Positions 18,067-37,034 of a stretch of 64,000 bases of DNA are shown here, piece after piece. A program made the translations under genes and the position numbers. Source of the stretch: Hymenobacter edaphi (GTDB lineage: Bacteria > Bacteroidota > Bacteroidia > Cytophagales > Hymenobacteraceae); NCBI RefSeq assembly GCF_003258365.1, contig NZ_QHKM01000002.1:62001-126000 (forward strand), in the 5' to 3' direction. The notes under the pieces are model-generated. The model had not been told where the DNA came from, ran no database searches, and worked only from the letters and a program-made list of their open reading frames with translations. Within the stretch, counting starts at the first letter, position 1; the number at the start of each line of letters is the position of its first letter.

Positions 18067-19710
18067 CTACCGCCCGGCGGCGGCCGGCGCCCAGCGGCGG
18101 CCGGGCCAGTTGGCAGGGCGGACCGGGGTGCAGCGCCGAAATTCGATGGCGGCCGAACTGTCGCCGGCCACGGTGGTGGTCAGCGCGCCGCCGGGCACCT
18201 GGAACTGCACGCGGTCGAACAGCACCTGGCGGGTGTCGAGCAGGCTGAGGCGTGCGTCGGTGGTCTGGATGCGGGCGCGGCGCACGGTGAAGCCGCGCAC
18301 GTCGGCGGCGGTAAAGAGCTTCTGGGCGCGGATGTCGAGGTTTTCGAGCAGCACGTCGCGCAGCGGCGTTTCGGGAATGGCTTCCACCTTCACAAACTGG
18401 CTGGCCTGCTCCACGAGGATGTCGCGGGCGGTGATGTGGGCGAAGTGCGGCGTGAGGGCCGTGACGGGGCGGGCGGGCAGGCGGCTGGCCAGGCCGCCCA
18501 CGTGCGTCGCGCTACCGAGCATGTCCCAGTGGAAGGCGGTGGCCTTCAGGTTCATGCGGATTCGCTCGTAGGTCAGGTTTTCGCCGCCGCCGCCGCGGGG
18601 CCGGCGCGTCTTGAAGCGGATGCCCACGCCGGTGTTGTCGAATACGCAGTCGTGCACGTAGAGGTTGCGGATCATGGCGGCCGTTTCGCTGCCGCAGGTG
18701 ATGCCGCCGTGGCCTTCGCGGGCCAGGCAGTGGCGCACCACCACGTTTTCGGTGGGCCGGTTCACGCGCAGCCCGTCCTCGCCCCGGCCGGCCTTGAGGG
18801 TGAAGCAGTCGTCGCCGGCGCTGAGGGTGCAGTACTCGATGAGCACGTTGCGCGAGGATTCCACGTCGATGCCGTCGCCGCGCTGAATGCCCACGGAGTT
18901 GACCGTCACGCCCCGGATGATGACCCCGTCGCAGTACACCGGCACGATGTTCCAGAAAGCCGTATTTTCCAAGGACACGCCCTCGATGTACACGTCCCGG
19001 CAGTTGATGGGCGAAATGAACATGGGCGGGAAGATGATGCCGCCGTCGTGGCCTTCGTACACGCGCTGGGCCACCGGCGTGCGGGCCAGCACCACGTTTT
19101 CCACCACGTCGTGGGTCATCGTCTGCCGGCGCACCGAGCCGCCCTGAGCCGGCCCGATCAGCCGGCCCCGGCCGGTCACGGCAATGTTCTGCTGGCCGTT
19201 GGCGTAGAGGCACGCGCCCAGCGACATCACCTCCACGCCCTCGGTGCGGGTAAACACGGCCGGGCGGTAATCTTCCACGGCGCCGCTGAAATACAGCTCG
19301 GCGCCGTCCTCGAAGTGCAGGTTGACGTTGCTTTTCAGGCTGATACGGCCGGTGTGCCACTGGCCGGCCGGCACCACCACCGTGCCGCCCCCGCGCCGGC
19401 TCACCTCGTCGAGGCAGGCCTGAATCTGCGCGGTGACTTGGCCGCCGGGTTGAGCGCCGCGCTCGGTGATGCGCAGGGTGTAGGCCGGAAACGTGGGCTT
19501 GCGGAACGGCGGCATGGCAAACGGCGCCTTCACCGGGGCAATGTCGGCGGGCAGCCGGGCGGCGCCCACCTGCTCCCGGGTGGGAATGGTGGCGGAGAGG
19601 CCGGCGGGCGGGCCGGGGCGCAGTGCGGCGCAGGAAGCGGCCAGCAGCAGCCCGGCGAGGCAGACGACCAGGGAGGGGAGCCGGCAAAGCCGGGGCGGGT
19701 GGGAAGACAT
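18067..19710 (-). CDS. Glycoside hydrolase family 28 lipoprotein (polygalacturonase-like)
   Basis: A 547-residue right-handed parallel beta-helix enzyme. The N-terminus is a lipoprotein signal with lipobox LAASC (Cys about 27), so it is anchored in a membrane, likely facing the periplasm or surface. GH28 catalytic signatures appear in order: GDGIDVESS (NTDG equivalent), AGDDCFTLKAG (paired aspartates) and EGHGGITCGSE (GHG histidine). These hydrolyse polygalacturonan or related pectic polymers. ATG at 19710 opens the signal peptide; the longer frame from 19902 is not needed. Convergent with trehalase; together with GH43 it suggests use of plant cell-wall sugars. Confidence 0.9.
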   Translation of the reverse strand: MSSHPPRLCRLPSLVVCLAGLLLAASCAALRPGPPAGLSATIPTREQVGAARLPADIAPVKAPFAMPPFRKPTFPAYTLRITERGAQPGGQVTAQIQACLDEVSRRGGGTVVVPAGQWHTGRISLKSNVNLHFEDGAELYFSGAVEDYRPAVFTRTEGVEVMSLGACLYANGQQNIAVTGRGRLIGPAQGGSVRRQTMTHDVVENVVLARTPVAQRVYEGHDGGIIFPPMFISPINCRDVYIEGVSLENTAFWNIVPVYCDGVIIRGVTVNSVGIQRGDGIDVESSRNVLIEYCTLSAGDDCFTLKAGRGEDGLRVNRPTENVVVRHCLAREGHGGITCGSETAAMIRNLYVHDCVFDNTGVGIRFKTRRPRGGGGENLTYERIRMNLKATAFHWDMLGSATHVGGLASRLPARPVTALTPHFAHITARDILVEQASQFVKVEAIPETPLRDVLLENLDIRAQKLFTAADVRGFTVRRARIQTTDARLSLLDTRQVLFDRVQFQVPGGALTTTVAGDSSAAIEFRRCTPVRPANWPGRRWAPAAAGR

Positions 19711-22359: not shown

Positions 22360-24537
22360 ATGAAAACAACTTGTACTCTTGCGGCCCTGGCCGCCGGGCT
22401 GAAACGTGCCCATGCCTTAGCGTTATTGGGTTTCTTAAGCAGCACGGCGGCCCTGGCCCAAACTACCCCCGCCTTTCCCCGCAACGAGCCCTTCAAAGGC
22501 AGCGCGGCCACCAGCTTCACCTTCGGCGGCGCGGCCCGCCTGACCGGCACCGGCGGCACCGGCAACGACGCCGTGGGCCAGGGCTACCTGCGCCTGACCG
22601 ACGCGCTGACCAACCAGGCCGGCTACGCCATCGACAACATCGGCTTCCCGGCCGGGGCGGGCTTCACCATCTCGTTTGAGTTCTTCAGCTACGGCCGCAC
22701 CACCGCCGACGGCGCCGACGGCTTCAGCGTGTTCCTCGTCGATGCCAACCAGCCCAGCGGCGGCTTCCGCATCGGGGCCTCGGGCGGCTCGCTGGGCTAC
22801 GCGCAGAAAACCATCGACCCGGTGTCGGCCGGCGTGACCAAAGGCTACATCGGCATCGGCATCGACGAGTTCGGCAACTACTCGGCCGGCACCGAAGGCC
22901 GCTCGGGCGGCAGCCCCGCCGTCGACGCCAGCGGGCGGGTGCCCAACGGCGTGGCCATCCGCGGCGCCGGCAACGGCTCGGCCGGCACCGACTACCCCTA
23001 CCTGACCGGCACCGCGCCCGGCGCCCTGGGCTTCGCGCTGGATGTGCCCACTGCCCGCGCCCAGGCCGGCTCGGCCGACTACCGCCGCGCCTACATCGAC
23101 GTGGTGCCCACCACCGCAGGCAGCACCACCACCTACCGCATCACGGTGCGCATTCAGCACGGCGGCGCGGTGCGCACGGCCATCGAAAACTTCCAGGTGG
23201 CCACGCCCCCGCAAAACCTGCGCCTGGGCTTCGCCGGCTCCACCGGCGGCAGCACCAACGTGCACGAAATCCGCAACCTGAACCTGGTGCAGGTGCCCTT
23301 CGCCGCCGACGACGCGGCCACCACGGCCTACAACGCGGCCGTGACGGTGCCCATCCTGAGCAACGACGTGGCGCCCGGCAGCAACATCGACCCGGCCACC
23401 GTGGACCTGGACCCCAACACGGCCGGCGTGCAAGCCTCGCTGGCGGTGCCGGGCAAGGGCACCTTCGCCGTCAATGCCCAGGGCGTGGTCACGTTTACGC
23501 CCAGCGGCAGCTTTGCCGGCACGGTGGTGGCGCCCTACACGGTGCAGTCGGTGCTGCGCGGCGACTACACCTCCAGCCCGGCCAACATCAGCGTGACGGT
23601 GCAGGGCGCCGACGTGGCCACCACCGTGAGCGGCCCGACCGCGGCCACGGCCGGCAGCCTGATTACCTACGCCATGCGCACGGCCAATGCCGGCGGGCTG
23701 ACGGCCACCAGCGTGGTGCCCAAGCTGCAGCTGCCCGCCGGCCTGCCCGCCGCCAACGTCACGGCCACCGGCGGTACCTACGACCCGGGCAGCGGCTGGG
23801 TCACGTTCGGGCCGATCAGCTCCCTGAGCGCCACGGCCGCGCCCGTCGACAACACGGTGACGTTCCGGGCGCCCACCACCGGCCCGGTCGACGGGCTGGC
23901 TACGGCGGCCTCCTCGGCCGTCCCCGACCCCATCGATACCAACAACTCGGCCACCGTCACCACGGCCATCGGCGCGGCCCCGCTGCCCGTCACGCTGACC
24001 GACTTCACGGCCCGCGCCCAGGGCGCCGACGCGCTGCTGACCTGGCACACGGCCCAGGAGAAAAACAACGACCGGTTTGAGGTGGAACGCTCCCGCACCG
24101 GCCGCGAATTTGAGCGCGTGGGCACGCTGCCCGGCCGCGGCAATGCCACCACCGTGAGCGAGTACCGCCACACCGACCCGGGCGCCGCCCGCGCCGGCGC
24201 CGGCACGGTGTACTACCGCCTGCGCCAGGTGGATTTCGACGGCACCGCCACCTACTCCGAAGTACGCGCCGTGCAGTTCGACGCCCAGGCCGCGCCCGCT
24301 GCCGTGACGCTCTACCCCAACCCGGCCGCCGAACAGGCTACGCTGGACCTAAGCCGCCTGCCCGCCGCCCGTTACGCCGTGCGCATCCTCGACCTGACGG
24401 GCCGCCTGGTGCAGGAGCAAGCGGTGAGTGGGGGCAGCCAGCCGGCCCTGTCGCTGCGCGGGCTGCGGCCCGGGGCCTACGTGGTGCAGGTGCGCGGGGC
24501 GGGCCGGGTGGTGTCGTTGCCGCTGGTGCGCTACTAA
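22360..24537 (+). CDS. Secreted lectin-like multidomain protein with T9SS sorting domain
   Basis: A 725-residue exported surface protein. Signal peptide to about residue 34 (LSSTAALAQ). Residues about 40-315 form an L-type lectin/LamG-like beta-sandwich (FTISFEFFSYG, DGFSVFLVDA, GYIGIGIDEFGNY). A cadherin-like or Big_9-type segment (VPILSNDVAPGSNIDPATV) follows, then a DUF11-like repeat (VSGPTAATAGSLITYAMRT) and a link FDGTATYSEVRAVQ. The last 80 residues are a T9SS type A sorting domain (VTLYPNPAAEQATLDLS ... GAYVVQV). It probably binds glycans at the cell surface. Convergent with the giant gene across a strong terminator. Confidence 0.85.
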   Translation: MKTTCTLAALAAGLKRAHALALLGFLSSTAALAQTTPAFPRNEPFKGSAATSFTFGGAARLTGTGGTGNDAVGQGYLRLTDALTNQAGYAIDNIGFPAGAGFTISFEFFSYGRTTADGADGFSVFLVDANQPSGGFRIGASGGSLGYAQKTIDPVSAGVTKGYIGIGIDEFGNYSAGTEGRSGGSPAVDASGRVPNGVAIRGAGNGSAGTDYPYLTGTAPGALGFALDVPTARAQAGSADYRRAYIDVVPTTAGSTTTYRITVRIQHGGAVRTAIENFQVATPPQNLRLGFAGSTGGSTNVHEIRNLNLVQVPFAADDAATTAYNAAVTVPILSNDVAPGSNIDPATVDLDPNTAGVQASLAVPGKGTFAVNAQGVVTFTPSGSFAGTVVAPYTVQSVLRGDYTSSPANISVTVQGADVATTVSGPTAATAGSLITYAMRTANAGGLTATSVVPKLQLPAGLPAANVTATGGTYDPGSGWVTFGPISSLSATAAPVDNTVTFRAPTTGPVDGLATAASSAVPDPIDTNNSATVTTAIGAAPLPVTLTDFTARAQGADALLTWHTAQEKNNDRFEVERSRTGREFERVGTLPGRGNATTVSEYRHTDPGAARAGAGTVYYRLRQVDFDGTATYSEVRAVQFDAQAAPAAVTLYPNPAAEQATLDLSRLPAARYAVRILDLTGRLVQEQAVSGGSQPALSLRGLRPGAYVVQVRGAGRVVSLPLVRY

Positions 24538-24783: not shown

Positions 24784-27700
24784 TTATTCCACTACCAGGC
24801 GCTGGGCCTGGCTGCCGGCGCGCACCACGTACACGCCCGTCGGCAGCGTGTCGGGCAGCGTCAGCTGGGCGGCGCCGCTGGCATCGGCGCGGGTGCTCAG
24901 GACGAGGCGGCCCACGGCGTCAAACACCTGAATGCCGGTGCCGGCGCCGGCGCCCGTCAGCTTGACGGCGGTGCGGGCGGGGTTCGGGTACAGGGCCAGC
25001 TGCGGTTTCACCGGGCCGGGCACGCGCACCGTGCGCAGGTCCGAGTAGGTGGTCGTGCCGTCGAAATCCACCTGGCGCAGGCGGTAGTACACCAGGGCCG
25101 CGCCGTAGCGGCTCAGGTTGCGGTCCGTCACCTGGTAGTCGTGGCGGGAGGTGCTGTTGCCCTGCCCGGTGCGGCGCTCCACCACGCTGAACTCGCGGCC
25201 ATCCACGCTGCTTTCCACGGCGAAGTAGGCGTTGTTTTTCTCCTGCGAGGTGGCCCACTTGATCAGCGCGTCTTCGCCCTGGCGCTCGGCCGTGAAGTCG
25301 ACCAGCGTCACCGGCAGCGGCGAGGTGCCGAGGGTGCCGATAACCGTCTGGCTGAACGAGGTCAGGTTAAACGTCACCGTACCCGAGGCGTTGGCAGCCG
25401 TGGCCGCAATGGGCGCGTCGAAAGCTCCGTCGCTGTTGCTGGCGCGCTTGAGCAGGCGCAGCGTGGTCGTCGGGCTGGCCGCGTCGGCCGGGCTGATATC
25501 AGTGGCGCTGAGCGTGTACGTCACGGCCGCGTTGGCGAAGCTGCCGGTGCCGTACTGGTTGATAATCCAGTACGCGGGCGTGTAGTAGTGCGCCAGGCCG
25601 CTCGGCTGGATGCCCTGGGGCCGCCCGTCGAGGCGGGCTACCGTCACTTCGAAGCTCCCCGACACGCCGGTGAAGTTGATGGCGGCGTTGGTGCCCGGGA
25701 AGGTGACGGTGCCGTTGGCACTGACCGCCTGCAGGCTGCTGGTGCCGAAGCCCACCGGGGCGGTGCTCGTCACGCGGGTGGCGCCCGTCAGCGCCCCCAC
25801 TGCGCCGCTGACGACGTCGGTGGTCGAGGGGCCGCTGTCGTTGAACTGCAGGTACGATACCAGACCGTCTTCTGCGCCGCTGAGCGTCAGGTGGCGCAGC
25901 AGCCGCGCTTCCGTCTGGGTCAGGGTCTTGGTCCACTGGCTCACCTCGTCGATGTCGCCGGGGAAGTTATTGGCCGTCGTGCTCGTGCCTACGTTGCCGA
26001 TGAAGTTGACGCGGTTGGCGGCCGGGCCGTTGCCCGTAGCGAAGTTGATTTCCGGCACCCCGTTGAGGTATACAATCAGCGCGCTGCCGGTGTACGTGGC
26101 CACCACGTGGTGCCACTGGTTGGCCGTTACGAGCTGCGGACTCGTCTGGCGGTTCACCGTGGCGCTGCCCGTGCCGAAGCCTGCGCCCAGGCGGCCGTTG
26201 CCCGTCACGTAGATGTAGGGCGCGGCTCCGTTGCCGGTGCCGTTGCCCAGCACGTAGTACGTCTCGCTGCCCGTGCCGATGGCCGGCTTAATCCACACCG
26301 ACTGCGTGTAGGCGCCGCTCAGGGTCGGGGCCTGAGTGGGGCTGCTGCTGAAGTTCACGTAGCCGGCCGTGTTGTCGCCCGCAAAGCGTAGGGCCGTACC
26401 CGCCACGCGGTCGGTTTTGATGATGCGACGGTTGCCGGCCGGGTTGGTAACGGTGGGTGCGTACGCGGTGCCGCCGACGGTCAGGCTGGGCACGGTGGCG
26501 TCCAGCAGGTTGCCATTGGTGGCATTGGCCGCCACGTCGTACACCAGGAAGAAGTAGTTCGTGCCCAGCGCCAGTTGCTGCGTGCCCGCAATGGTAAAGC
26601 TGCCGTTCGGGTTGCTTACGGCGCTGCCGAACTGCGTGGTAGTTGCAAACGTGCCGCTGGTGCCGGTGTAGTACACCCGGGCCGCCGCAATGTCGGCCGG
26701 AGTGGTGCTGCCGCCGGTGGTGAACGAGAAGGATTGCGCGCTCAGCGGGTTATCGTTGCCGCCACCGATGACCACGGCCACGCGCAGAATCTCCTGGTTG
26801 GTGCTGCCCGCCGCCACGCGGTCGGTGTTGAGCTGATCAGTGGTGCTGCTGGTGTAGGTAGCCGGGTTCGGTACTACGAAGTTGTTGGTGTTGCTGTTCA
26901 GGCTGACGCCCTGCCCGCTGAGCTGAGCCGTGGCGTACACCGTGTGGCCGCCCACGGCCAAGGGCTGGTTGGAGGGATGAACCAAAGTCCAGTTACCGCT
27001 GCCATCGGCCGTAGTCGTGCCGCGGCTGGTGGCGTCCACGTACACCGTGACCGTGCTGCCGGCCGGGGCCGTGCCGCTGTAAGTAGGCAGGTTGCTGGCA
27101 ACGGTGGTGCCGTTGGCGGGAGCTACCACCGTCGGCGCCGCCGTGCGAACGAACGTGACGCTGTACGAGTTGCTGGCCGAGTTCAGGGTGTTGTTGGCAT
27201 CCTGGGCCACGCCCGCGCCCACGCTCACCGTGGTGGCCGAGCCGGGCGTGGCGGGCGTCACGTTGAAGGTGTAGGGGCCGGCGCCGCTGCCGCTGAAGCT
27301 GGCGCTGACCACGCTGCCGCCCGTCACCGTCACGTCGGCGGCGGTGAAGCTCGTGCCCACGCTCTGCGAGAAACTCACCGAGAAGGGAATCGGCGAAGTG
27401 CCGGTGGTGCCGCCCGAGGCGGCGGCCGAGGAGCTGACGGTGGCCGTCAGGGCCGGGGCCGTCACGCTGAACGAGGCCGAGGTAAAGGACTCGTACGTGG
27501 CGGTGTTATTGGGCTGAATGCTGCCCACGAACACATCGTTGACGAATACGTTCAGTCGCTGGTCGACCGCGGTGTAGTAACGCTGGGCCGTCTGGAAGTT
27601 CACCTGGTAGCTGCCCGTGGGCACGGCCAGGTTCTGCGAGATGCTGGCGTTGTTGTCGCCAGCACTCTGTATCAGGGCCACCGCGTCGCCGTTAGGCGGC

Positions 27701-30700
27701 AGGGGCTGGGTATGGCCAGCGACTTGGGAGTCGAAGAGGCTGCCATAGCGCGCCACGCCGGACGTGCCGGTGAAGCTCCAGGGCGCGGCCACCACGGCTA
27801 CCGCGTCGGACGCCTTCCTGAAGCCGTTAGCCGGTACGTTGTTAGTTTCAAAGCTGCCGTTTTGCAAGCCGTTGGCCACCACCGTGCTCGTGCCGCTTTG
27901 CAGCACCTGCACCACGTCCACGAAGGCCGTCACGTCGCCGTTGCCGCTGGCGCTGCCGGCCGCCTGAATGCGCAGGGTAGGAGCCGCCGCAAAGTTCTTG
28001 GTGATGCTGTACTGCTCGCCGCTGGTGTAAGGTACGTTGGTGACCGTGGGCGAAATGCCGGAGCTGTTCTGCACGTTCAGCGTGAGCACGCCGTTGCCGG
28101 TGCCCGTATTCACCACCACCGTATAGGCGGTGCCCGAGCCCGAGACGCTGCTGACGCTGGCGCCGGTGTTGCTGGTCACGGAGAAGTTGCTGGTCGTCAC
28201 GCCCGTCACGCTGCTGGCGAAGACCACCCGGTAGCTCACGGTAGCGGTGGCTGTGGGGTTAGGCGTCAGGCGCGTCACCGACACCACCGTGGTGTTGGGT
28301 TGGTTGTAGGTGATGCTGTACGGCGCGGGGGCGGCGGTGTTGAAGTTGCTGGCCGCGTCCTGGGCCACGTTGGCCGGCACGTTCACCGTGGTAGCCGTGC
28401 CGGGCGTGGTGGGCGTCACCGTGAAGGTGAAGACAGTGCCGGGGCTGGCGCCGTTGACCACGCCGCCGGTAATCGAGCCGTTGCTCACCGTCACGTCGCC
28501 GGCCACGAAGCCGCTCACGTTTTCGGAGAAGGTCACCGTGAAGGGAATGGGCGAAGTCGTGGTGGTGCTGCCCGAGGCGCCGGCCGTCGAGCTGATGGCC
28601 ACCGCTGGGCGCGTGGTATCCACCACGAAGGTGTTGGTGTTGCTGCTGGGGCTGACGTTGCCGGATACATCCGTCGCGGTGGCGCGTACCGTGTGGCCGC
28701 CCTGAGCCAGGGCCGTGGGCTGCGTCAGGCTCCAGCTGCCACCCGCAGTAGCGGTGGTCGTGCCGATGCTGCTGCCGTCGACAATCACCGTCACCGTCGA
28801 GTTAGCCTCGGCCGTGCCGCTGTAGGTCGGCGTAGTGCTGCTGGTGCTGCTGCCGTTGGCCGGCGCCGTTACCACCGGGGCCGCCGGCGGCGTCGTGTCG
28901 ACGATGAACGTGTTGGTGTTGCTGCTGGCACTTTGGGCCGAGCCGTTGATACTGGCCGTGGCCCGTACCGTATGGGAGCCTTCAGCCAGGGGCGTAGTTG
29001 GGGTAAAGCTCCAGTTGCCCGCTGCCGTAGCCGTGGCCGTACCCGCGGAGGTACCATCCACGATTACCGCCACCGTGCTGTTGGCCAGGGCCGTGCCGCT
29101 GTAGATCGGGGTGTTGTCGTTGGTCAGCGCGCCGTTGGGCGGCGTTAGCACCACCGGCGCGTTCGGGGTGGTCACGAACTGCAACACGCTGCCGTAGCTG
29201 GTGCCCACGCTGTTGGTGGCGTAGGCCGCTACGTAGTAGCGGGTGCCGGGAGTCAGGCCGGAAATAGCTTCGGAGAAAGTACCGGTGCCGTTGCCGTTGG
29301 TGTCCTGCGTGACGCCGCCTTCGCCGATGGTGGGCGTGTTATCGGTGCTGCTGTACACCACGCCGCGGCCAGTCACCGTGGCTCCGCCGTCGGCCGTTAC
29401 GTCACCGCCCAGCACGGCGCTGGTGGTCGTCACGCTGCCGGGAGTGGCCGTCGTTACGGTGGGGGCTACTACCGGCGTACCGGTCAGTTGCAGGTTGTCG
29501 AAGGCAATGACTTCGCCCACTCCGTCGGACGAGACGGAAGTGGCATCGATGCGGAAATCCACCAGCTGGCCGTTGGCTGAAGCCGGCAGCGCGGCCGAGT
29601 ACGTAGTCAGCGCCGGAGTCAGCTGCGCGCCGGCCGGAGCGCCCGTCGTGGTGTTGGGGTCGGCGTCGCGGGCCAGGTTGCCGGTGGTGCTGTTGCTGGT
29701 AGTGCTTTGGTCAGTGCTGCGGAACGAAATCAGCGGCACCCAGGTGCCGCTGCTGCCGCCGAGGCGGTAATACACCTTGACCAGCCCGTTACGCTCCCAC
29801 ACGTTGTTGGAGGCGGCCAGCTTCACCGAGAAATTCAGGTTGATGTAGCCGGCGGTGTTGGTTTGCCGGGTGATGAAGGTGCCCGTCCCGCCGCTGTAGA
29901 TGCTGGTGCCGCTGACCCACCAGTAGTAGCTGTTGTTGATGCCCGTGATGGTAGTGGCCGGAAATCCGCTGGCGTGCCACTGCCCGTTTGGCTCCGAGGC
30001 CACGTTGGTGCGGATAAAAGCCCGGCCGTTGGCCATCAACCCGTCGTTGCTGGTATAGCGGGTGCCTTCGCCGTCGGTTTCCAGGTCCTCTTGGTACGGC
30101 ATGCTCGCCGTCAGCAGTGTTGGAATTACGTCGATGGTGCGTTCCACCGGGGTGCTGGTGGCGCCTGCCGGGTCCGTTACCGTAAACCGGATTTTTCGGG
30201 CCCCTCCGATCGGGTCCACGTTGTCGATGTTCTGGTAGCGCACCGACTTCAGCACGGTTTCGTACTGCGCTTTCGTGGCCGTACCCGTCAGATTCAAAAC
30301 GCCGGTCGCATTGTCGGGGGTACCGGTAATGCCGAACTGGCTGGTGTAAGTCAGGCGGTCCTCAGACGGAATAAAGTTTTGGGAAATGCTGACTTGGGCG
30401 CTGGCCATATTGGCGTCGTTAGCATCCGTTACAGTCAGCGAGGTGGTAACAGCAGTGGCCGGGTCACCTTCGGTGTAAACAAGATTCGCCGATTCGATCG
30501 AAAGTACCGGTATAGAGTTGTTGCTCAATACACCACTTACCCGGATGTTGTCGAAGGCAAACTCTTCACTCCCATTGTACTGCGCGGCAACAATGCGAGT
30601 TTGCATTGTCGAACCTGACCCTATCACATCAAAAGAGTACTCCGTTAAGGTGCTGCCGACAGTTGGCGAGCTAGCATCAGAGGCATCGTAGATGGCCGGC

Positions 30701-31308
30701 TCATTGGTATTATCCTGCCCTGTAAATCCGTTGCGGTTGGCGTCCTGACGCCAGTAGCCTCCGCTAATCTTGTCGCCCACAAACTGGCCTATCGTCGTCC
30801 AGGCACCAGTGTTGTTGAACCGCACTTGTACTTGGAGAGTGTCGTCCCGTTCCATACGGTCAAACAAGCGCGTACTGCGGCCCAGCATGAGGGTGAAGGC
30901 GACCTTCAGACTGCCGTAGCCGGCGACACTCACTGGCAGTAGTGTGACTTTACCAGACTTCCTAGGAGTAGCGTTGCGGTTTGATAAAGGGTTTGGAACT
31001 CCTTGCACGTCTTCTCCTATCCAGTAGAATGTGCCGTCGATACCGCTAGGATTAACGATGCCAGTACCCGTCCAGCCAGGCGCATCGCCCGTTAGCGTGC
31101 TATTGGAGGAACGCCGAAAGTAAGCTTCGTTGCTGCCCGTGGTGGCGGTTGTATAAATAGTCGTATTGGCCACATCCACCTGCGAACCAGTCGGCCAGTT
31201 GGTGCCCTCGAACGACTCCTTTTGAAGCTCATCGCGCGTCTGCGCCTGGCTACTCCAGCCGGCCAGCAGCAGCGGCAGCAGCAATAAGTAGCGTAAGAAT
31301 GTTTGCAT
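24784..31308 (-). CDS. Giant (2174 aa) multidomain secreted protein with T9SS sorting domain
   Basis: A very large exported protein. Signal peptide 1-23 (LLLAGWSSQAQ). Approximate order: jelly-roll segment (25-255), cadherin-like (262-386, VLSIESANLVYTEGD), a second jelly-roll-like segment (400-610), a fibronectin-like module (616-720, ATPGSVTTTSAVLGGDV), two Ig-like Big_3 repeats (723-900, each PxYSGTAxANSTVxVIVDG ... NTFxVD), two modules of the type SPIPFTVTFSENVSGFVAGD, a third Big_3-like repeat near 1394, a LamG/concanavalin domain (1634-1816, WHHVVATYTGSALIVYLNG) and a T9SS type A domain (2093-2174, LALYPNPARTAVKL). It is likely an adhesin. TATTTTTG at 31376-31369 may be its -7 element. 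It is the last gene of the co-directional block starting at 34196. Confidence 0.88.
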   Translation of the reverse strand: MQTFLRYLLLLPLLLAGWSSQAQTRDELQKESFEGTNWPTGSQVDVANTTIYTTATTGSNEAYFRRSSNSTLTGDAPGWTGTGIVNPSGIDGTFYWIGEDVQGVPNPLSNRNATPRKSGKVTLLPVSVAGYGSLKVAFTLMLGRSTRLFDRMERDDTLQVQVRFNNTGAWTTIGQFVGDKISGGYWRQDANRNGFTGQDNTNEPAIYDASDASSPTVGSTLTEYSFDVIGSGSTMQTRIVAAQYNGSEEFAFDNIRVSGVLSNNSIPVLSIESANLVYTEGDPATAVTTSLTVTDANDANMASAQVSISQNFIPSEDRLTYTSQFGITGTPDNATGVLNLTGTATKAQYETVLKSVRYQNIDNVDPIGGARKIRFTVTDPAGATSTPVERTIDVIPTLLTASMPYQEDLETDGEGTRYTSNDGLMANGRAFIRTNVASEPNGQWHASGFPATTITGINNSYYWWVSGTSIYSGGTGTFITRQTNTAGYINLNFSVKLAASNNVWERNGLVKVYYRLGGSSGTWVPLISFRSTDQSTTSNSTTGNLARDADPNTTTGAPAGAQLTPALTTYSAALPASANGQLVDFRIDATSVSSDGVGEVIAFDNLQLTGTPVVAPTVTTATPGSVTTTSAVLGGDVTADGGATVTGRGVVYSSTDNTPTIGEGGVTQDTNGNGTGTFSEAISGLTPGTRYYVAAYATNSVGTSYGSVLQFVTTPNAPVVLTPPNGALTNDNTPIYSGTALANSTVAVIVDGTSAGTATATAAGNWSFTPTTPLAEGSHTVRATASINGSAQSASSNTNTFIVDTTPPAAPVVTAPANGSSTSSTTPTYSGTAEANSTVTVIVDGSSIGTTTATAGGSWSLTQPTALAQGGHTVRATATDVSGNVSPSSNTNTFVVDTTRPAVAISSTAGASGSTTTTSPIPFTVTFSENVSGFVAGDVTVSNGSITGGVVNGASPGTVFTFTVTPTTPGTATTVNVPANVAQDAASNFNTAAPAPYSITYNQPNTTVVSVTRLTPNPTATATVSYRVVFASSVTGVTTSNFSVTSNTGASVSSVSGSGTAYTVVVNTGTGNGVLTLNVQNSSGISPTVTNVPYTSGEQYSITKNFAAAPTLRIQAAGSASGNGDVTAFVDVVQVLQSGTSTVVANGLQNGSFETNNVPANGFRKASDAVAVVAAPWSFTGTSGVARYGSLFDSQVAGHTQPLPPNGDAVALIQSAGDNNASISQNLAVPTGSYQVNFQTAQRYYTAVDQRLNVFVNDVFVGSIQPNNTATYESFTSASFSVTAPALTATVSSSAAASGGTTGTSPIPFSVSFSQSVGTSFTAADVTVTGGSVVSASFSGSGAGPYTFNVTPATPGSATTVSVGAGVAQDANNTLNSASNSYSVTFVRTAAPTVVAPANGTTVASNLPTYSGTAPAGSTVTVYVDATSRGTTTADGSGNWTLVHPSNQPLAVGGHTVYATAQLSGQGVSLNSNTNNFVVPNPATYTSSTTDQLNTDRVAAGSTNQEILRVAVVIGGGNDNPLSAQSFSFTTGGSTTPADIAAARVYYTGTSGTFATTTQFGSAVSNPNGSFTIAGTQQLALGTNYFFLVYDVAANATNGNLLDATVPSLTVGGTAYAPTVTNPAGNRRIIKTDRVAGTALRFAGDNTAGYVNFSSSPTQAPTLSGAYTQSVWIKPAIGTGSETYYVLGNGTGNGAAPYIYVTGNGRLGAGFGTGSATVNRQTSPQLVTANQWHHVVATYTGSALIVYLNGVPEINFATGNGPAANRVNFIGNVGTSTTANNFPGDIDEVSQWTKTLTQTEARLLRHLTLSGAEDGLVSYLQFNDSGPSTTDVVSGAVGALTGATRVTSTAPVGFGTSSLQAVSANGTVTFPGTNAAINFTGVSGSFEVTVARLDGRPQGIQPSGLAHYYTPAYWIINQYGTGSFANAAVTYTLSATDISPADAASPTTTLRLLKRASNSDGAFDAPIAATAANASGTVTFNLTSFSQTVIGTLGTSPLPVTLVDFTAERQGEDALIKWATSQEKNNAYFAVESSVDGREFSVVERRTGQGNSTSRHDYQVTDRNLSRYGAALVYYRLRQVDFDGTTTYSDLRTVRVPGPVKPQLALYPNPARTAVKLTGAGAGTGIQVFDAVGRLVLSTRADASGAAQLTLPDTLPTGVYVVRAGSQAQRLVVE

Positions 31309-31368
31309 GTGTTAGGGAAAAGAAGTGAGACGTAGGCAGCTGCCAAGCAATGCAAGGCAGGTATTGTG

Positions 31369-31376
31369 CAAAAATA
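31369..31376 (-). promoter_or_regulatory. Candidate -7 element upstream of giant gene
   Basis: On the minus strand this reads TATTTTTG, an exact TAnnTTTG, 60 bp before the start at 31308. The surrounding DNA is AT-rich. No -33 TTG at the expected spacing. Confidence 0.45.
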
Positions 31377-31468
31377 TCCGGTTATATTCGGATAGTCAGC
31401 TATATAGCTTGCTGACGATGCAAAGGGCCGCTGTCAAGGCGGCGCCTACCGGGGTGCGAGGGCGCCGG

Positions 31469-32410
31469 CTAGGCCGGCTGCATCAGGAGCAGCGTGCCCA
31501 GCGGTTCGCCCACCTGCACGCCCATGCCGGCCAGCTGCCCGCCCGTGAAGTAGCCTTCTTCCAGGCACACGATGTCGAGCTGCAGCACCTGCCCGCTGCC
31601 GCAGGCCACCAGCAGCGCCTGTCCGGGCGCAGCCAGTACCACGGTGCCGGGCGGCGCCGCCACGGTTTCGGGGCGGAGGCTAACGGCCAGTACCCGCAAC
31701 TCCTGCCCGCGTAGGGTCGCCAGGGCGCCGCGGTTCCAGGGGTTGGCGGCCCGTACCAGCCGGGCAATGCTGTCGGCCGGTTCCTGCCAGTCGATGCAGA
31801 GGTCGGCCAGGGTGGGGCGGGGCCAGTAGCGGGCCGCGGCTTCGTCCTGGGGCTGCTCGGGCAGCGGCGTGTCGCCGCGCAGGCCCGCCAGCAGCTGGCG
31901 GCCGGCGCCCACGCCGGCCAGGGCCAGCTGGCCGCGGTGCAGCCCGTGCGTGTCGTGCGGCCCGATGGGAACGGGCACGGCCACCAGCACCGGGCCGGTG
32001 TCGAAGTCGGCATCCATGCGGTGCGCCGTCACGGCCCCGGCCGCTTCGCCCCGCCGAATCTGCCAGAACGTAGGCTCGGGGCCCCGGTAGCCGGGCAGCG
32101 CCGCAAAGTGAAAGTTGATAAAGCCCTGCGGCGGCAGGCCCAGCACGGCCGCCGGAATCCGCCACGGGAACGTGAGAACCAGCACGGCCGTGGGTTGCTC
32201 CTCGGCCAGCCAGGTGGTTAATTGCGGGCCCAGGCCGGGGCGCTGCAGCACTAGCGGCGCCACGCCGGCCTGCCCGAGGGCCTGGGCCAGCCGCTCCGCC
32301 TCCGGGGTGCCGGTAGCGGGCACGGCTACGCCCGCTACCACGCCCTGGCTGAGCAGGTCGTGCAGCAGGGGCCAGCCCAGCAGGCTGCTGATGATAACGG
32401 CAACGCGCAT
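31469..32410 (-). CDS. Formyltransferase-family protein (Fmt/ArnA-like), not the housekeeping Fmt
   Basis: A 313-residue protein with the formyl-transferase N-terminal fold: MRVAVIIS strand, then FINFHFAALPGYRGPEPTFW (N99 and H101 of the catalytic N-H-D triad) and MDADFDTGPVL (D137). The C-terminal 90 residues resemble the Fmt C-terminal beta-barrel (GTVVLAAPGQALLVACGSG ... LQLDIVCLEEG). The formyl donor in the family is 10-formyltetrahydrofolate. The usual Fmt loop (SLLPxxRGxAPIxWAI) is altered to GPEPTFWQ, and the gene is far from def (41630), so it is probably not tRNA formyltransferase. It lies between the Tail_Collar genes and the giant adhesin; N-formylation of an amino sugar or a protein is an inference. 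Confidence 0.75.
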   Translation of the reverse strand: MRVAVIISSLLGWPLLHDLLSQGVVAGVAVPATGTPEAERLAQALGQAGVAPLVLQRPGLGPQLTTWLAEEQPTAVLVLTFPWRIPAAVLGLPPQGFINFHFAALPGYRGPEPTFWQIRRGEAAGAVTAHRMDADFDTGPVLVAVPVPIGPHDTHGLHRGQLALAGVGAGRQLLAGLRGDTPLPEQPQDEAAARYWPRPTLADLCIDWQEPADSIARLVRAANPWNRGALATLRGQELRVLAVSLRPETVAAPPGTVVLAAPGQALLVACGSGQVLQLDIVCLEEGYFTGGQLAGMGVQVGEPLGTLLLMQPA

Positions 32411-32460
32411 CGTAATCAGAATTGAAACGCCCCCGCGGGGAGGCGTAGGTAAGCCAATAA

Positions 32461-32503
32461 CCGTCAGTCACGGCTGGCTCCGGAAAGCAGCCGCGACTGA
32501 CGG
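32461..32503 (-). terminator. Hairpin between Tail_Collar and formyltransferase genes
   Basis: CCGTCAGTCACGGCTG (32461-32476) pairs with 32488-32503 with one mismatch and an 11-nt loop. It ends the Tail_Collar operon or attenuates read-through into the formyltransferase gene. Confidence 0.7.
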
Positions 32504-32519
32504 TCGATAGTAGGCGCGC

Positions 32520-33059
32520 TTAGCTGCGCGAGGGGTACACCCCCGTCAAGGCAATGACGAAGTAGGTAGCCAAGTAGGGCTGGCGGTTTTCGTGGGGCTG
32601 GTTGCCGCCCTGCGCAGACGTTTGGCCTTTCACCGAGTTGGCGGTGCCCAGCGTCGCGTTTTTGGGGCCGCTGGAGTACATGTTCAGGTTGCCGCCGCCG
32701 GGGAAGTTGCCCACCGGGCTGGACTCATCGGCCGACGTCGCTGCTTGCACGGTGCCGCTGACCACGTGCGCGTGCGGCGGCATCTGGTCCAGGGTGAGGG
32801 CTACCGTTTCGTTGCCGCCCATCTGGCCGAGCGCGTAGTTCTGCAGCCCCGGGCCCTGGCCCGAGCCCACCGCCACCCGCGACTGCAGATTGGGGAGCTT
32901 GAACGTAGTGACGCCGTCGCCGCCGTACGTGGTGCCCAGCAGCGAGAACAGGGCCTGGTTTTGGTTGATGGGCAGCGTCTGGCCGTTGCAGAATGCCCAG
33001 TTCTTCGGGGCGAAAGGAAAGCTGATGGCGCGGATTTCGCCGATGTATGGTTCGTCCAT
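32520..33059 (-). CDS. Tail_Collar (MdpB-like) protein, third of three
   Basis: A 179-residue protein with the phage tail collar domain (PF07484 type, also annotated microcystin-dependent protein MdpB): the N-terminal PYIGEIRAISFPFAPKNWAF, CNGQTLPINQNQALFSLLGT, TYGGDGVTTFKLPNLQSRVA blocks are the diagnostic order. A glycine- and serine-rich middle region and an ending HENRQPYLATYFVIALTGVY follow. No signal peptide or membrane segment. Collar domains form trimeric fibre bases in phages; what free-standing bacterial copies do is not established. It lies 33 bp after the second copy. Confidence 0.88.
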   Translation of the reverse strand: MDEPYIGEIRAISFPFAPKNWAFCNGQTLPINQNQALFSLLGTTYGGDGVTTFKLPNLQSRVAVGSGQGPGLQNYALGQMGGNETVALTLDQMPPHAHVVSGTVQAATSADESSPVGNFPGGGNLNMYSSGPKNATLGTANSVKGQTSAQGGNQPHENRQPYLATYFVIALTGVYPSRS

Positions 33060-33092
33060 GGAAGCAATGCTGATAAAAGGGGAAACCTGGGA

Positions 33093-33632
33093 CTACTGTT
33101 GCGACGGGTAAATGCCCTCGAAGCAGATAATGCAGTTCAGCGCCAGTACGGGCTGAATATTGGTGTGCGGCTGGTTGCCCCCGCTGGGCGCGGCCGTCCC
33201 GGTCACGTTAACCGCCGTCATGCTCGATTCCGAGGCGCTGGCGGAGTAAATGTTGCTGTTGGCATTGCCGGGGTATTTGCCGGTGGGGTCGTTGCTGGCG
33301 GTGCCGCCCGTGCTGGCGCCGACGGAGGCCACGTACTGGTGGCTGTGGGAGGGCATCTGCAGGGTGGTGAGCGTGACACTTTCGCTACCGGCCCGCTGGC
33401 CCGGCTCGTAGCTGGAGAGGCCGGTACCGGTGCCGGCGCCCACGTTCACGCGGCTGCGCAGATCCGGCAGGGCAAAGGTGTTCTGGCCGTCGCCGCCGTA
33501 GGTAGTGCCGATCAGGGCAAAAAGCGTGTCGTATTCGGAGATGCTGAGCAGCTGACCCTGGCACTGCAGCCAGCCGACGGGCGCAAAAGAGAAGCCCACG
33601 GTGCGGATTTCGCCGATGTAAGGAGTAGACAT
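33093..33632 (-). CDS. Tail_Collar (MdpB-like) protein, second of three
   Basis: A 179-residue paralogue with the same order of motifs: PYIGEIRTVGFSFAPVGWLQ, CQGQLLSISEYDTLFALIGT, TYGGDGQNTFALPDLRSRVN, and an end block IQPVLALNCIICFEGIYPSQ. The variable middle (about 85-150) differs strongly from its neighbours, suggesting separate partners or ligands. Spacing to the first copy is 18 bp, so the three are one operon. The cell location is unclear as there is no export signal. Confidence 0.88.
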   Translation of the reverse strand: MSTPYIGEIRTVGFSFAPVGWLQCQGQLLSISEYDTLFALIGTTYGGDGQNTFALPDLRSRVNVGAGTGTGLSSYEPGQRAGSESVTLTTLQMPSHSHQYVASVGASTGGTASNDPTGKYPGNANSNIYSASASESSMTAVNVTGTAAPSGGNQPHTNIQPVLALNCIICFEGIYPSQQ

Positions 33633-33650
33633 GCGGAGGGGGAGAAAGAA

Positions 33651-34196
33651 TTAGGAACGCTGGGGGAAAACGCCTTGGATAGCAATGCAGTAGTTCATGA
33701 CCAGGAACGGCATGCGGTTTTCGTGGGCTTTGCCGCTGCCGGCCGGCTCCGCCGTGCCGCTGAGCACGTCCGGGGCCATGTTCGCGCCGCCATCCAGGGC
33801 GTACTGATTGCTTTGGCCGGCCGGAACGGCCGCGTAGTAGCCGTTGCTCACCGTCGATTGGCCGGCCGGGTTGTTGTTGGCCGGCATGGCCGTGGGCGTC
33901 AGCGTATGTATATGCGCGGGCAGCTCGGTCAGCAGCAGGGTTTCCGTCTCAGACCCCAGCATGGCTCCCTGCGGATACGGGGAAAGCCCCGGGCCCTGAC
34001 CAGCGCCCGCGTAAGTGCGGCCGCGCAGGTCCGGCAGGGCAAAGGTGGTTTTACCATCGCCGCCGTACTGAGTGCCCAGCAGGGAGAACAGGGCCGTGTT
34101 CCGGCTAATCTGCATGATCTGCCCCTGGCAGAGCATCCAGCCAGACGGGGCGAAGGAGTAGGGCATCAGGCGGATTTCGCCGACAAAAGGATCCAT
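33651..34196 (-). CDS. Tail_Collar (MdpB-like) protein, first of three
   Basis: A 181-residue paralogue and the first gene of the operon. Motifs: DPFVGEIRLMPYSFAPSGWM, CQGQIMQISRNTALFSLLGT, QYGGDGKTTFALPDLRGRTY, and ending RMPFLVMNYCIAIQGVFPQR. The ATG at 34196 (MDPFVGEI) matches the starts of the other two copies; the frame is open upstream to 34427 but that part is low-quality sequence. The 490-bp upstream region is AT-rich and probably holds the operon promoter. Confidence 0.88.
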   Translation of the reverse strand: MDPFVGEIRLMPYSFAPSGWMLCQGQIMQISRNTALFSLLGTQYGGDGKTTFALPDLRGRTYAGAGQGPGLSPYPQGAMLGSETETLLLTELPAHIHTLTPTAMPANNNPAGQSTVSNGYYAAVPAGQSNQYALDGGANMAPDVLSGTAEPAGSGKAHENRMPFLVMNYCIAIQGVFPQRS

Positions 34197-34685
34197 AGAA
34201 GAGTTGTTGAGGAGAAGGAGGTGAAGGGAAAAGAAGAAGGGTAAGCGGCAAGCCAAAAAACAGCAACACAAAGCCGGACGGGCTGGTAGAAACCAGTCGA
34301 CGGCGCGTGGCAATAGGCGTTGGTAGGAAGCGGGGCGGGGGTGAGTCAGCGAACGGCCGCACAAGCAGCCCGTGAGCCGCTGCCAGGTTCCTGATTCGGC
34401 GCCAAGTTCGAAAAATAGCCTAAGCAAAGCACCCTTATTTCTTTATTTTTTCATAGCATTAGCGCTTTGTTTATGTTTGCTGTTGCTTAAAGACAAATAT
34501 GGCTGGATTGGATTGTTCCCTTGCACGTAGAATTACGTGGTCGTGGACGGCGGCTACCAGGTAGTTTTACCTGGTTTTCGGGCCGCCTCGCCGGGCGCCG
34601 GGCCGGCCGGGCCCAAAAACAGCGCAGCCGCGAAACCACTCCGAAGAGCAGCTTCGCGGCTGCGGGGCCTGCCGGTAGCGACGGC
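34197..34685. other. Intergenic, upstream of Tail_Collar operon
   Basis: 489 bp. 34400-34510 is clearly AT-rich and is the likely promoter zone of the operon at 34196, though no exact TAnnTTTG was found on the minus strand. The hairpin 34623-34662 is listed separately. No gene seen. Confidence 0.5.
34623..34662 (-). terminator. Hairpin after patatin gene
   Basis: GCAGCCGCGAA (34623-34633) pairs with TTCGCGGCTGC (34652-34662) around an 18-nt loop, 24 bp beyond the patatin stop codon. No obvious T-run. Confidence 0.5.
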
Positions 34686-37034
34686 CTAGTCCAGCGACCG
34701 GTCGCGGAAGAGCACGTACCCGATGTGGGCGAAAACGCCGAACTGGTGGTTTTTCTCGTCGTAGTGGACGAACTGCAGCGCCGCCGGGCCCACGGGCGTC
34801 TGGTACTGGAAGCCGGTCATCAGGGTGAGGTAGGGGCGGCTGAAGAGGTTGGTGCGCTGGGCGCGCAGCGGGTCGTCGGGGCGCCGGTCCCAGGGGCGCA
34901 CGAAGGCGTGGGCGTAGGCCTCGGTGCGCCATTCCAGGCTGCCGGCCACGGCTTTCACGTAGCGCAGGCCGGCGGCGGCGTAGGCCGTGCCGCGGTAGTT
35001 GTCGAGGAAGATGGTGCGCGAATCGGGCAGGGGCAGGAAGGCCGGCGAGGTGGTGAGCGTGGAGCGGTACGTGGCGAAGGTGCCCTGGGTGCTGGCCACC
35101 AGCTCCGTCATGTAGCCCCAGGCGTGGGTGCGGGCCCCCACCGTATCGGATCTGTTGAGGCTGAAGTATTGCTCCGTAAACAGGCTGGCCTTCACCCACT
35201 GGTGGTTTTTTTCGCGGCCGGGCAGGCCCTCGGCCGTCGAGCCGGGCTCGTATTTTTCCTGGCCCGTCACGCCGCGGAAGCCAAACTCGGCGCGACGCCC
35301 TTTGGTGGCGTACTGGCGGCGGTTCAGCGAGTTGCGCTGAAAGGCCAGCGCGCCCGTGAAGCCCTGAAAGCGGTTCTGATCCAGCTCGTCGTCGGTCCGA
35401 ATCTGGTCGGCGTTGGCAAACCGGTCGCGGTTGGTGAAGGCCCCGAAGCTGAGCACGTAGCGGCTGCGGTACTTCGGGCTGAAGCCCACCTGCAGGTAGG
35501 TTTTCAGGTCGCGCTGCTGCAGGGCCGTGTTCTGGGCCGCTTTGCCGTTGCCGATCAGCCCGCCGGTGTCCTGGAAGTTGAAGTTGTTGAAGGTGATGGT
35601 CGGCTCGACGTAGAGCGGCACGCGGCCCGGAATGCTGACGCGGAACGAGCCCTCGGCCCCGTTGTAGAAGCGCCCGATGGTGGCGTCGGCCTGAATGGTG
35701 TAGAGGTAGCGGTTGAGGTAGCGGTAAGCCGCGCCCAGGTAGAAGTTGCTCATCGAGCGGGTGGTGAGCAGCACGCCGAGGTCGGTGGTGAAGTTGGAGT
35801 TCTGGCGCGCGTCCACGCTCAGCACGTAGCCCTCCTGCTTGGCGTCGTAGCGCACCCGCGGGTACACGTTGTTGAAGAAGTCGTTGTTGACGAGCCGGTA
35901 GTAGCCCTCCTCGATGTCGGAAGGCGAATACGACGAGCCCGAGCGCCGGAAAAAGCGCGTGACGAACTTCTGCTGCATCTGCGGAATGCCCTGCACCCGC
36001 ACTTCCTTGAACTCCGGCTTGGGCGCCCGCTCGGTAAAGGCGCGGCGGCGCTGCTGCAGGGCCAGCGTATCCTCGCGCCGCTGAATGCGGCGCAGCGCCA
36101 GCGGCAGCTTGTCGGTAGCGGCCTGCTCGCCCAGGGAAATAAACTTCTTCACCTTGGCAAAGTCGCCGGCCGTCATGCCCTCCAGGTTGGGCTGAATGAA
36201 CACCCCGTTGCGGCCCACCGACAGCGTATCGGCCGCGTTCGAGCCGAGGAAGATGAGCGTGCCGGTGAGCAGCGCGTCGTCCTTGCCGGTGGGGTACTTG
36301 CCGAAGGCCACGTCGCCCACGTTCACGCCGATGATGACGTCGGGCTTGAACTCGTCGCGCATCACCCCGGTGGGGAAGTTGTCGACCACAGCCCCGTCGA
36401 AGAGGTAGCGGCCGTCGGGCTGGCGAATGGGGCGGAAGGCCAGCGGGTAGGCCATGGAGTTGCGCACGGCATCGGAGAGGGAACCGCTGCGCTGCACCAC
36501 CCGCTCGCGGGTAAATACCTCGGAGGCCACGGCGCGGTAGGGCACCAGCAGCTTGTCGAAGTTGTAGCCCGAAATGGCGCCGGCCGGGGCCAGCATGGTG
36601 GCCAGCACGTAGTTCAGGGCCACGTCGTCGACGAGCTTGGGCGTCACGCGGGCCTTCAGCGTCGAGTCGAGGGCCAGGCGCAGGTGCAGCGCGGCGGGAG
36701 AGGGGTTGGCGTCGTAGTAGTTGAACACCTTGCCCTCCTGCGGGCGGCCCGACACCCAGTCCTGAAACTGCGGGCTGACGACAATTTCCTCGATTTCCTT
36801 GGGCGAGTAGCCGGCCGCGTACAGCCCGCCCACGATGGCGCCCATGCTCGTGCCCACGATGTAGTCGATGGGAATGCGGTTCTTCTCGAGCACTTTCAGC
36901 ACCCCCACGTGGGCCAGGCCTTTGGCCCCGCCGCCGCTGAGCACCAGGCCCACTTTCTGGGCGCGGGCCGGCCGGCTCAGGCAGCAACAAATAACTAGCA
37001 GTAAGCCCAACGCGGGGCGGAAAAATCGGGTCAT
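34686..37034 (-). CDS. Patatin-like phospholipase fused to POTRA and outer-membrane barrel
   Basis: A 782-residue exported protein with the layout of type Vd autotransporters (PlpD-like). Signal peptide 1-25. The patatin lipase domain (about 28-300) has the oxyanion loop GGGAKG (34-39), the nucleophile serine S63 in GTSMG and the catalytic aspartate D213 in FDGAVVDN. A POTRA-like segment near 340-420 (FKEVRVQGIPQM, DIEEGYYRLV) leads into a long C-terminal region of alternating strands (about 430-782) ending in FRDRSLD. It should present a phospholipase through the outer membrane. Diverges from the T9SS gene at 37174. Confidence 0.85.
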   Translation of the reverse strand: MTRFFRPALGLLLVICCCLSRPARAQKVGLVLSGGGAKGLAHVGVLKVLEKNRIPIDYIVGTSMGAIVGGLYAAGYSPKEIEEIVVSPQFQDWVSGRPQEGKVFNYYDANPSPAALHLRLALDSTLKARVTPKLVDDVALNYVLATMLAPAGAISGYNFDKLLVPYRAVASEVFTRERVVQRSGSLSDAVRNSMAYPLAFRPIRQPDGRYLFDGAVVDNFPTGVMRDEFKPDVIIGVNVGDVAFGKYPTGKDDALLTGTLIFLGSNAADTLSVGRNGVFIQPNLEGMTAGDFAKVKKFISLGEQAATDKLPLALRRIQRREDTLALQQRRRAFTERAPKPEFKEVRVQGIPQMQQKFVTRFFRRSGSSYSPSDIEEGYYRLVNNDFFNNVYPRVRYDAKQEGYVLSVDARQNSNFTTDLGVLLTTRSMSNFYLGAAYRYLNRYLYTIQADATIGRFYNGAEGSFRVSIPGRVPLYVEPTITFNNFNFQDTGGLIGNGKAAQNTALQQRDLKTYLQVGFSPKYRSRYVLSFGAFTNRDRFANADQIRTDDELDQNRFQGFTGALAFQRNSLNRRQYATKGRRAEFGFRGVTGQEKYEPGSTAEGLPGREKNHQWVKASLFTEQYFSLNRSDTVGARTHAWGYMTELVASTQGTFATYRSTLTTSPAFLPLPDSRTIFLDNYRGTAYAAAGLRYVKAVAGSLEWRTEAYAHAFVRPWDRRPDDPLRAQRTNLFSRPYLTLMTGFQYQTPVGPAALQFVHYDEKNHQFGVFAHIGYVLFRDRSLD

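Follow-up and report, generated by a model that had tools for sequence, protein, structure and literature searches.

The question raised by this locus is what three small proteins with a phage tail-collar domain, an enzyme resembling formyltransferases, and a giant surface protein do side by side on a bacterial chromosome. The window, i.e., the whole 64,000-nucleotide stretch of Hymenobacter edaphi DNA that was analyzed, contains the following features.

33651..34196, minus strand: collar 1 (slot 1, type A), 181 aa; PF07484, 95.8 bits; slot-pure clade of 21 rows
33093..33632, minus strand: collar 2 (slot 2, type B), 179 aa; PF07484, 94.3 bits; slot-pure clade of 20 rows
32520..33059, minus strand: collar 3 (slot 3, type C), 179 aa; PF07484, 94.2 bits; slot-pure clade of 22 rows
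31469..32410, minus strand: formyltransferase-like enzyme (FT), 313 aa; matches to PF00551 and PF02911
24784..31308, minus strand: giant surface protein, 2,174 aa; Ig-like repeats (Big_13), Laminin_G_3, and T9SS sorting domain (Pfam)
34623..34664, minus strand: terminator-like hairpin between the patatin gene and collar 1; 19 pairs, 12 of them G-C, with a T-rich tail

The original prediction had described five co-directional genes running from 34196 to 24784 with gaps of 18 and 33 bp between the collars, and coordinates, strand, and gaps proved exact; along the five genes, the intergenic gaps are 18, 33, 109, and 160 bp. Its Tail_Collar assignments likewise held, all three proteins passing the PF07484 cut-off of 24 bits, as did the intact triad of the Fmt/ArnA-like enzyme, formed by N99 (32114-32116), H101 (32108-32110), and D137 (32000-32002). 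The T9SS sorting domain claimed for the giant protein was recovered narrowly, with 28.5 bits for Por_Secre_tail (T9SS type A sorting domain) against a cut-off of 27. Signal peptides are absent from the three collars, and each carries an H-x-H motif (H95/H97 at 33906-33914 in collar 1, H96/H98 at 33339-33347 in collar 2, and H96/H98 at 32766-32774 in collar 3). An upstream, TTG-started extension of collar 1 (258 aa, including a hydrophobic stretch) was rejected as coding and is read as a leader, because the open stretch that precedes the domain spans 3 to 61 residues in five relatives and is dissimilar by eye. The hairpin at 34623-34664 is a consensus match only, since the 13 terminator-like sites across the region compare with 8.2 ± 3.0 in shuffled sequences; the 160-bp gap between the FT and giant genes holds a weak stem and nothing stronger.

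Our best explanation, to which we assign a probability of roughly 0.45, is an A:B:C heterotrimer of collars that is N-acylated by FT or, elsewhere, by a GNAT acetyltransferase and resides at the surface with the giant T9SS protein. The window locus would represent the formyltransferase version of a widespread cassette, in which distinct A, B, and C collars would assemble around a central metal into one heterotrimer, similar in shape to the receptor-binding end of a phage tail fiber. A dedicated acyltransferase, FT in this lineage and GNAT in others, would N-acylate the signal-less collars, most simply at their N termini, and the product would serve as a binding tip or cap outside the cytoplasm, adjacent to the co-encoded giant adhesin and probably attached to it.

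Linkage of collars, acyltransferases, and giant genes

PF07484 was detected in 24 of the 100 genomes of the family sample. The 34 family loci considered here comprise the window and 33 neighborhoods holding collar clusters listed for these genomes. FT homologues occur in 12 of the 34, window included, and in all 12 the enzyme gene lies between the collars and the giant gene on the same strand. Genes of at least 1,000 aa make up 28 of 178 genes within three genes of the collars versus 1 of 169 further off (Fisher p 5e-8), a count that leaves out the window and L055, where the gene caller missed the collars; such a gene lies near the collars in 27 of the 34 loci, plus the window. The named genomes were scanned with the FT alignment by means of two peptide patterns, within whose reach, distant FTs lying outside it, 67 loci were found. 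In all 26 named Hymenobacter FT loci (60 to 82% identity), three or four collars are positioned directly upstream of the enzyme and a large ORF of 1,057 to 2,827 codons, stop to stop, is positioned downstream. This ORF follows immediately on the same strand in 24 loci; it is cut by the locus end in L094 and starts about 0.9 kb after FT in L088, where one collar is fragmented. Some genomes belong both to the family sample with its 12 FT loci and to the named set of 26, and most module counts were drawn from related loci and are non-independent. The conserved neighborhood on which the original prediction had been staked is present in related genomes, and the module is real, old, and common to many loci. 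Away from these loci, a collar lies 1.3 kb from a diverged FT in L115 (Roseivirga), none was found before the contig edge at the FT locus L114, and none in any of the 39 scan loci L116 to L154, mostly from Chloroflexota. A fourth, weaker collar-like gene stands upstream of the triplet in L088 to L091, L093, L094, L097, L099, and L107, and most of these loci have one collar with a Tat score.

In the wider phylum, 80 of 296 Bacteroidota genomes contain PF07484. Among 40 neighborhoods outside the family, picked among the matches listed, the FT profile detected an enzyme near the collars in nine (L162, L166, L168, L172, L185, L187, L190, L191, and L192). A gene of more than 1,000 aa follows FT in L166, L172, and L191 and is cut, smaller, or absent in the other six; in L168, FT is encoded on the strand opposite to the collars. 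A Peripla_BP_6-like gene (Pfam; below cut-off in two cases) separates collars and FT in L166, L172, and L191, and a similar protein does so in L185 and L187. Genes of at least 1,000 aa are again concentrated near the collars (18 of 225 near versus 4 of 277 far; p 6e-4) and occur within three genes of them in 15 of the 40 loci, some of the other 25 being cut by contig ends. As a side observation, Peripla_BP_6-like proteins adjoin collars in L166, L172, L175, L191, L208, and L115; those of L166, L172, L175, and L191 are signal-less by eye and have a similar C-terminal end in common.

A GNAT acetyltransferase replaces FT beside the collars in loci of Bacteroidota, Pseudomonadota, Deinococcus, and Paenibacillus. 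Within Bacteroidota, L167, L170, and L176 combine a collar triplet with a GNAT, a DUF6916-like gene, and a giant gene. PF07484 is also present in 38 of 150 genomes sampled from the phylum of a Gammaproteobacteria MAG; among 13 loci picked from this sample (L216 being without gene calls), L211 and L214 encode three collars, a GNAT, and DUF6916-like proteins, and L212, L213, L215, L218, L219, and L220 have a gene of more than 1,000 aa near the collars. DUF6916 was confirmed by Pfam in six proteins (L167, L201, L202, L204, L206, and L211). On plasmids, 69 records match collar 1 at 148 places, with exactly three places in 29 of the 50 matches listed. The 12 plasmid regions inspected show a GNAT beside the collar triplet in seven (Aminobacter, Comamonas, Paenibacillus, Ruegeria, Azospirillum, Sinorhizobium, and Deinococcus L208), FT in one (Spirosoma L200, with collars, FT, and a 1,487-aa protein), and neither in four. 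On the Azospirillum oryzae plasmid (L205, 1658-16537), three collars, a GNAT, and a 99-aa gene are part of a larger cluster with PqqD-type, lasso B2-type, asparagine synthetase B, and 2OG-oxygenase genes. The originally proposed module of collars, FT, and giant protein is upheld as far as linkage is concerned, but its enzyme component had to be widened: FT is one of two enzyme types, GNAT being found elsewhere, and some collars adjoin giants without any enzyme. The accompanying idea of a surface fiber modified or assembled by these parts is still an inference.

Collar types and fold

Among 113 collar clusters, 69 contain three collars, 23 one, 10 two, 10 four, and 1 five, in a census that counts some genomes twice and in which the cluster of five (L088) derives from fragments. 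Removal of duplicates and other sizes left 61 triplets with 183 collars, among them L189, whose three collars form a single chain, and L061, in which two are fused. On a FastTree tree of the 183 collars, the slot label changes 31 times, compared with 90.1 ± 4.0 changes in 1,000 within-triplet shuffles (lowest, 76). Slot-pure clades join triplets from Bacteroidota, Deinococcus, Aminobacter, and Comamonas; L199, which lies within these cross-phylum clades, has no GNAT nearby. Profiles trained on seven triplets of the GNAT-type clades were applied to 54 others and resolved 26 of them into a single A, B, and C each, the remaining 28 failing to resolve in this way, whereas shuffles gave 11.7 ± 3.0 and none of 5,000 reached 26. 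Training on the Hymenobacter FT type yielded one of each in 24 of 41 triplets (9.0 ± 2.7 shuffled; 1 in 5,000), and with both training sets combined the result was 20 of 34 (7.2 ± 2.4 shuffled; 0 in 5,000). This typing is limited by misses and by kinship among the rows; the window triplet itself reads A-B-A with the GNAT-trained profiles, which assign collar 3 to A rather than C. Slot mapping of group pairs by eye, to which held-out profile typing is the better test, carried labels from six group pairs to 15 others (seven groups), of which 12 agreed and 3, all near ties, disagreed; the L162/L192 and L163/L179/L181 groups gave no clear mapping. A fixed slot order was rejected, as gene order varies between groups although the types recur, the common orders being A-B-C (FT type), C-B-A (GNAT type), and B-C-A (Tat type, Paenibacillus). 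Judged from these sequence comparisons, the three collars are not interchangeable, and their slots are orthologous between loci.

The predicted collar structure (pLDDT 76.6, with high confidence over approximately the first 60 residues and moderate confidence beyond) matches the tips of the cyanophage A-1(L) tail fiber (8kec), T4 gp12 (1ocy), and gp37 (2xgf), and the model of collar 2 matches the gp12 and gp37 tips. The same collar fold is found in these fibers, but the module collars are free-standing proteins of about 180 aa, come in three types, and are encoded beside an acyltransferase. In the collar profile, H-x-H aligns with residues 116 and 118 of the 1ocy chain, which has 198 residues and ends at 527, so that these positions correspond to His445 and His447. 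Both histidines of all three chains bind a metal on the threefold axis (PMC3004832), and the same axial site is described for other fibers (PMC6116203). H-x-H is kept in 183 of the 183 collars, and the region after it is highly variable (A2 consensus). Natural fusions connect collars with one another and with the enzyme: L189 encodes three collars in one 547-aa chain with H-x-H in each, L217 a collar-collar-GNAT protein of 559 aa with a further collar next door, L218 and L061 two collars per chain, and L224 a 730-aa protein that combines RTX repeats with three collars, in which no H-x-H was seen by eye.

Orthologous collar types, H-x-H, and natural fusions lead us to favor a heterotrimer. The three collars may instead form separate homotrimers with different ligands, the triplet being a set of specificities rather than one complex. 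Phage gp12 is a homotrimer (PMC3004832), a lone collar can suffice, judging from the 23 single-collar clusters, and the variation after H-x-H would suit such a set; but free specificities would not need to recur as a full A, B, and C set across lineages with varying gene order, and L189 unites three collars, with H-x-H in each, in a single chain. We consider separate homotrimers somewhat unlikely.

Acyltransferases and collar N termini

FT belongs to the Fmt/ArnA-fold formyltransferase superfamily by both fold and active-site residues. Its model is Fmt/ArnA-like (pLDDT 95.3), its closest solved structures are Fmt and ArnA, with which it has the N/H/D residues in common, and 29 module FTs, with identities as low as 22%, all keep N99, H101, and D137. 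Unlike Fmt and the ArnA formyltransferase domain, it adjoins collars, lies in a clade of its own, and scores far below both NCBIfam cut-offs, with 93 of 201.5 bits for the Fmt equivalog TIGR00460 and 85.9 of 777 bits for NF005998, an ArnA model of a two-domain protein. In a quick tree with long-branch warnings, 38 module FTs, including those of L114 and L115, form one clade (SH-aLRT 97) and 16 Fmts another (99). The 22 of 39 far FT loci that were long enough for the tree all fall outside, L116 being nearest to the module FTs and L145 nearest to Fmt. An ordinary Fmt duplicate was rejected, the module FTs forming a clade separate from the genomes' own Fmt. The isoelectric point is uninformative on tRNA binding, since its median is 6.0 for Hymenobacter module FTs and 6.2 for Fmt. 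GNAT loci among the triplets number 13, of which L159, L173, and L183 were found by a GNAT profile built with the other 10. Solved relatives of the GNAT include diamine and N-terminal acetyltransferases, which does not settle its substrate.

Signal peptides, typed by a pattern script plus reading, are distributed unevenly with respect to the enzymes. Signals are absent from 49 of the 61 triplets, of which 40 have FT or GNAT within 4 kb and 9 do not, whereas none of the 12 signal-bearing triplets has such an enzyme (p 1.7e-7, an optimistic value because the Tat loci represent few lineages). Eleven of the 12 signal-bearing triplets are Tat-like and one is Sec-like; L069 and L076, for which the script scored one of three collars as Tat, were both counted as Tat, the former by reading and the latter by kinship. 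Of 142 signal-less collars, 136 have D, E, A, S, or T at residue 2, the corresponding share being 35% among 679 other genes with computed starts; five more collars have no nearby Met. Proteins starting with these residues at position 2 are usual substrates of N-terminal acetylation, so the collar N terminus is our guess for the acylation target.

That the enzyme acts on the collars is suggested by the collar-collar-GNAT fusion and by the lack of an enzyme at signal-bearing triplets. Protein N-acylation by FT is called into question by the non-protein substrates of Fmt and ArnA, namely Met-tRNA and a sugar nucleotide. Conceivably, FT formylates, and GNAT acetylates, an amino sugar that decorates the cell surface or the giant protein and is read or bound by the collars. 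We found no amino-sugar pathway or glycosyltransferase genes recurring beside FT in the clusters inspected, in which most neighbors are unannotated, and the fusion and the enzyme-free signal-bearing triplets point to the collars; a sugar substrate is, in our estimation, as doubtful as the separate homotrimers.

Giant adhesins, cellular location, and comparison with phages

Por_Secre_tail was detected by Pfam in 21 of 23 picked collar-linked giants, Big_12 in 14, Big_13 in 12, Laminin_G_3 in 9, and SprB repeats in 6. Por_Secre_tail (21/23) and SprB (6/23) place them beside the known giant T9SS adhesins with Ig-like or SprB repeats, from which they differ in being encoded with collars and often an acyltransferase, a link not found in searches of the open-licence literature (preprints were outside the scope). 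These sorting domains, the Tat- or Sec-like signals on 12 triplets, and the RTX repeats of L224 argue for a location outside the cytoplasm. Alternatively, signal-less collars could remain cytoplasmic and help the giant protein to fold or be co-exported, under regulation by the enzyme, as would fit window collars without signal peptide next to a giant with a T9SS domain of its own. Tat- or Sec-like signals on relatives with the same type sets, and the RTX repeats of L224, make such helpers improbable.

A surface heterotrimer could be part of a more far-reaching scheme, which we regard as unlikely in its entirety: a cross-phylum system in which an obligate A:B:C fiber-tip heterotrimer tips giant adhesins, is N-acylated by a lineage-swapped FT or GNAT, and exits the cell through Tat or Sec if the enzyme is absent but with no classical signal if it is present, the acyl cap replacing or enabling an unfamiliar export or assembly route. 

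The cassette, found in bacteria of several phyla, looks like an undescribed surface-binding device. Triplet, enzyme swap, and linkage are not described in any of the open-licence papers found, and we rate them as new on that basis, preprints being outside the scope. Collar genes, usually annotated as stray tail fiber proteins, occur in 80/296 Bacteroidota genomes and 38/150 genomes of the Gammaproteobacteria-MAG phylum sample. If the triplets are one surface device, many mislabeled genes gain a testable role, the phage fiber tip acquires a cellular use, and it becomes directly testable whether proteins or glycans undergo N-formylation apart from translation initiation. The enzyme swap and the absence of the enzyme from signal-bearing triplets offer clear experimental handles.

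Phage records contain 501 collar places in 457 records, i.e., about one each, so that a collar triplet is not a phage-tail habit. A PHROGs scan of 10 other window proteins gave no match for the immediate neighbors of the module. The original view that the locus is not a prophage tail is borne out, as the triplet is unlike phages and no tail genes adjoin the collars; the accompanying statement that no phage gene is near applies to the immediate neighbors but not to 18067-19569, 5 kb beyond the giant gene, which matches a tail-spike family (phrog_2234, E 1.9e-12). A prophage remnant was rejected on the collar number per phage record and the missing PHROG matches, and this or an accidental neighborhood has a negligible chance of being correct, even though PF07484 is a phage domain and the tail-spike match is present, because the layout common to 26/26 and 12/12 FT loci already refutes it. 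Bacterial collar paralogs are also known from Solibacter usitatus, where "phage tail collar" paralogs show a sign of positive selection (PMC3174227); the excerpt of that paper does not discuss triplet, enzyme, or giant.

The module is flanked in the window by a lectin/CshA-like T9SS protein (22360-24537) and a patatin (34686-37034). Both flanks recur with the module in L056 and L057, and the same pair surrounds FT-less collars in L065. The genome has a second collar triplet (L055, C1:40623-42183) with Tat-like signals and with no giant or enzyme nearby, whose neighborhood is common to L059 and L060.
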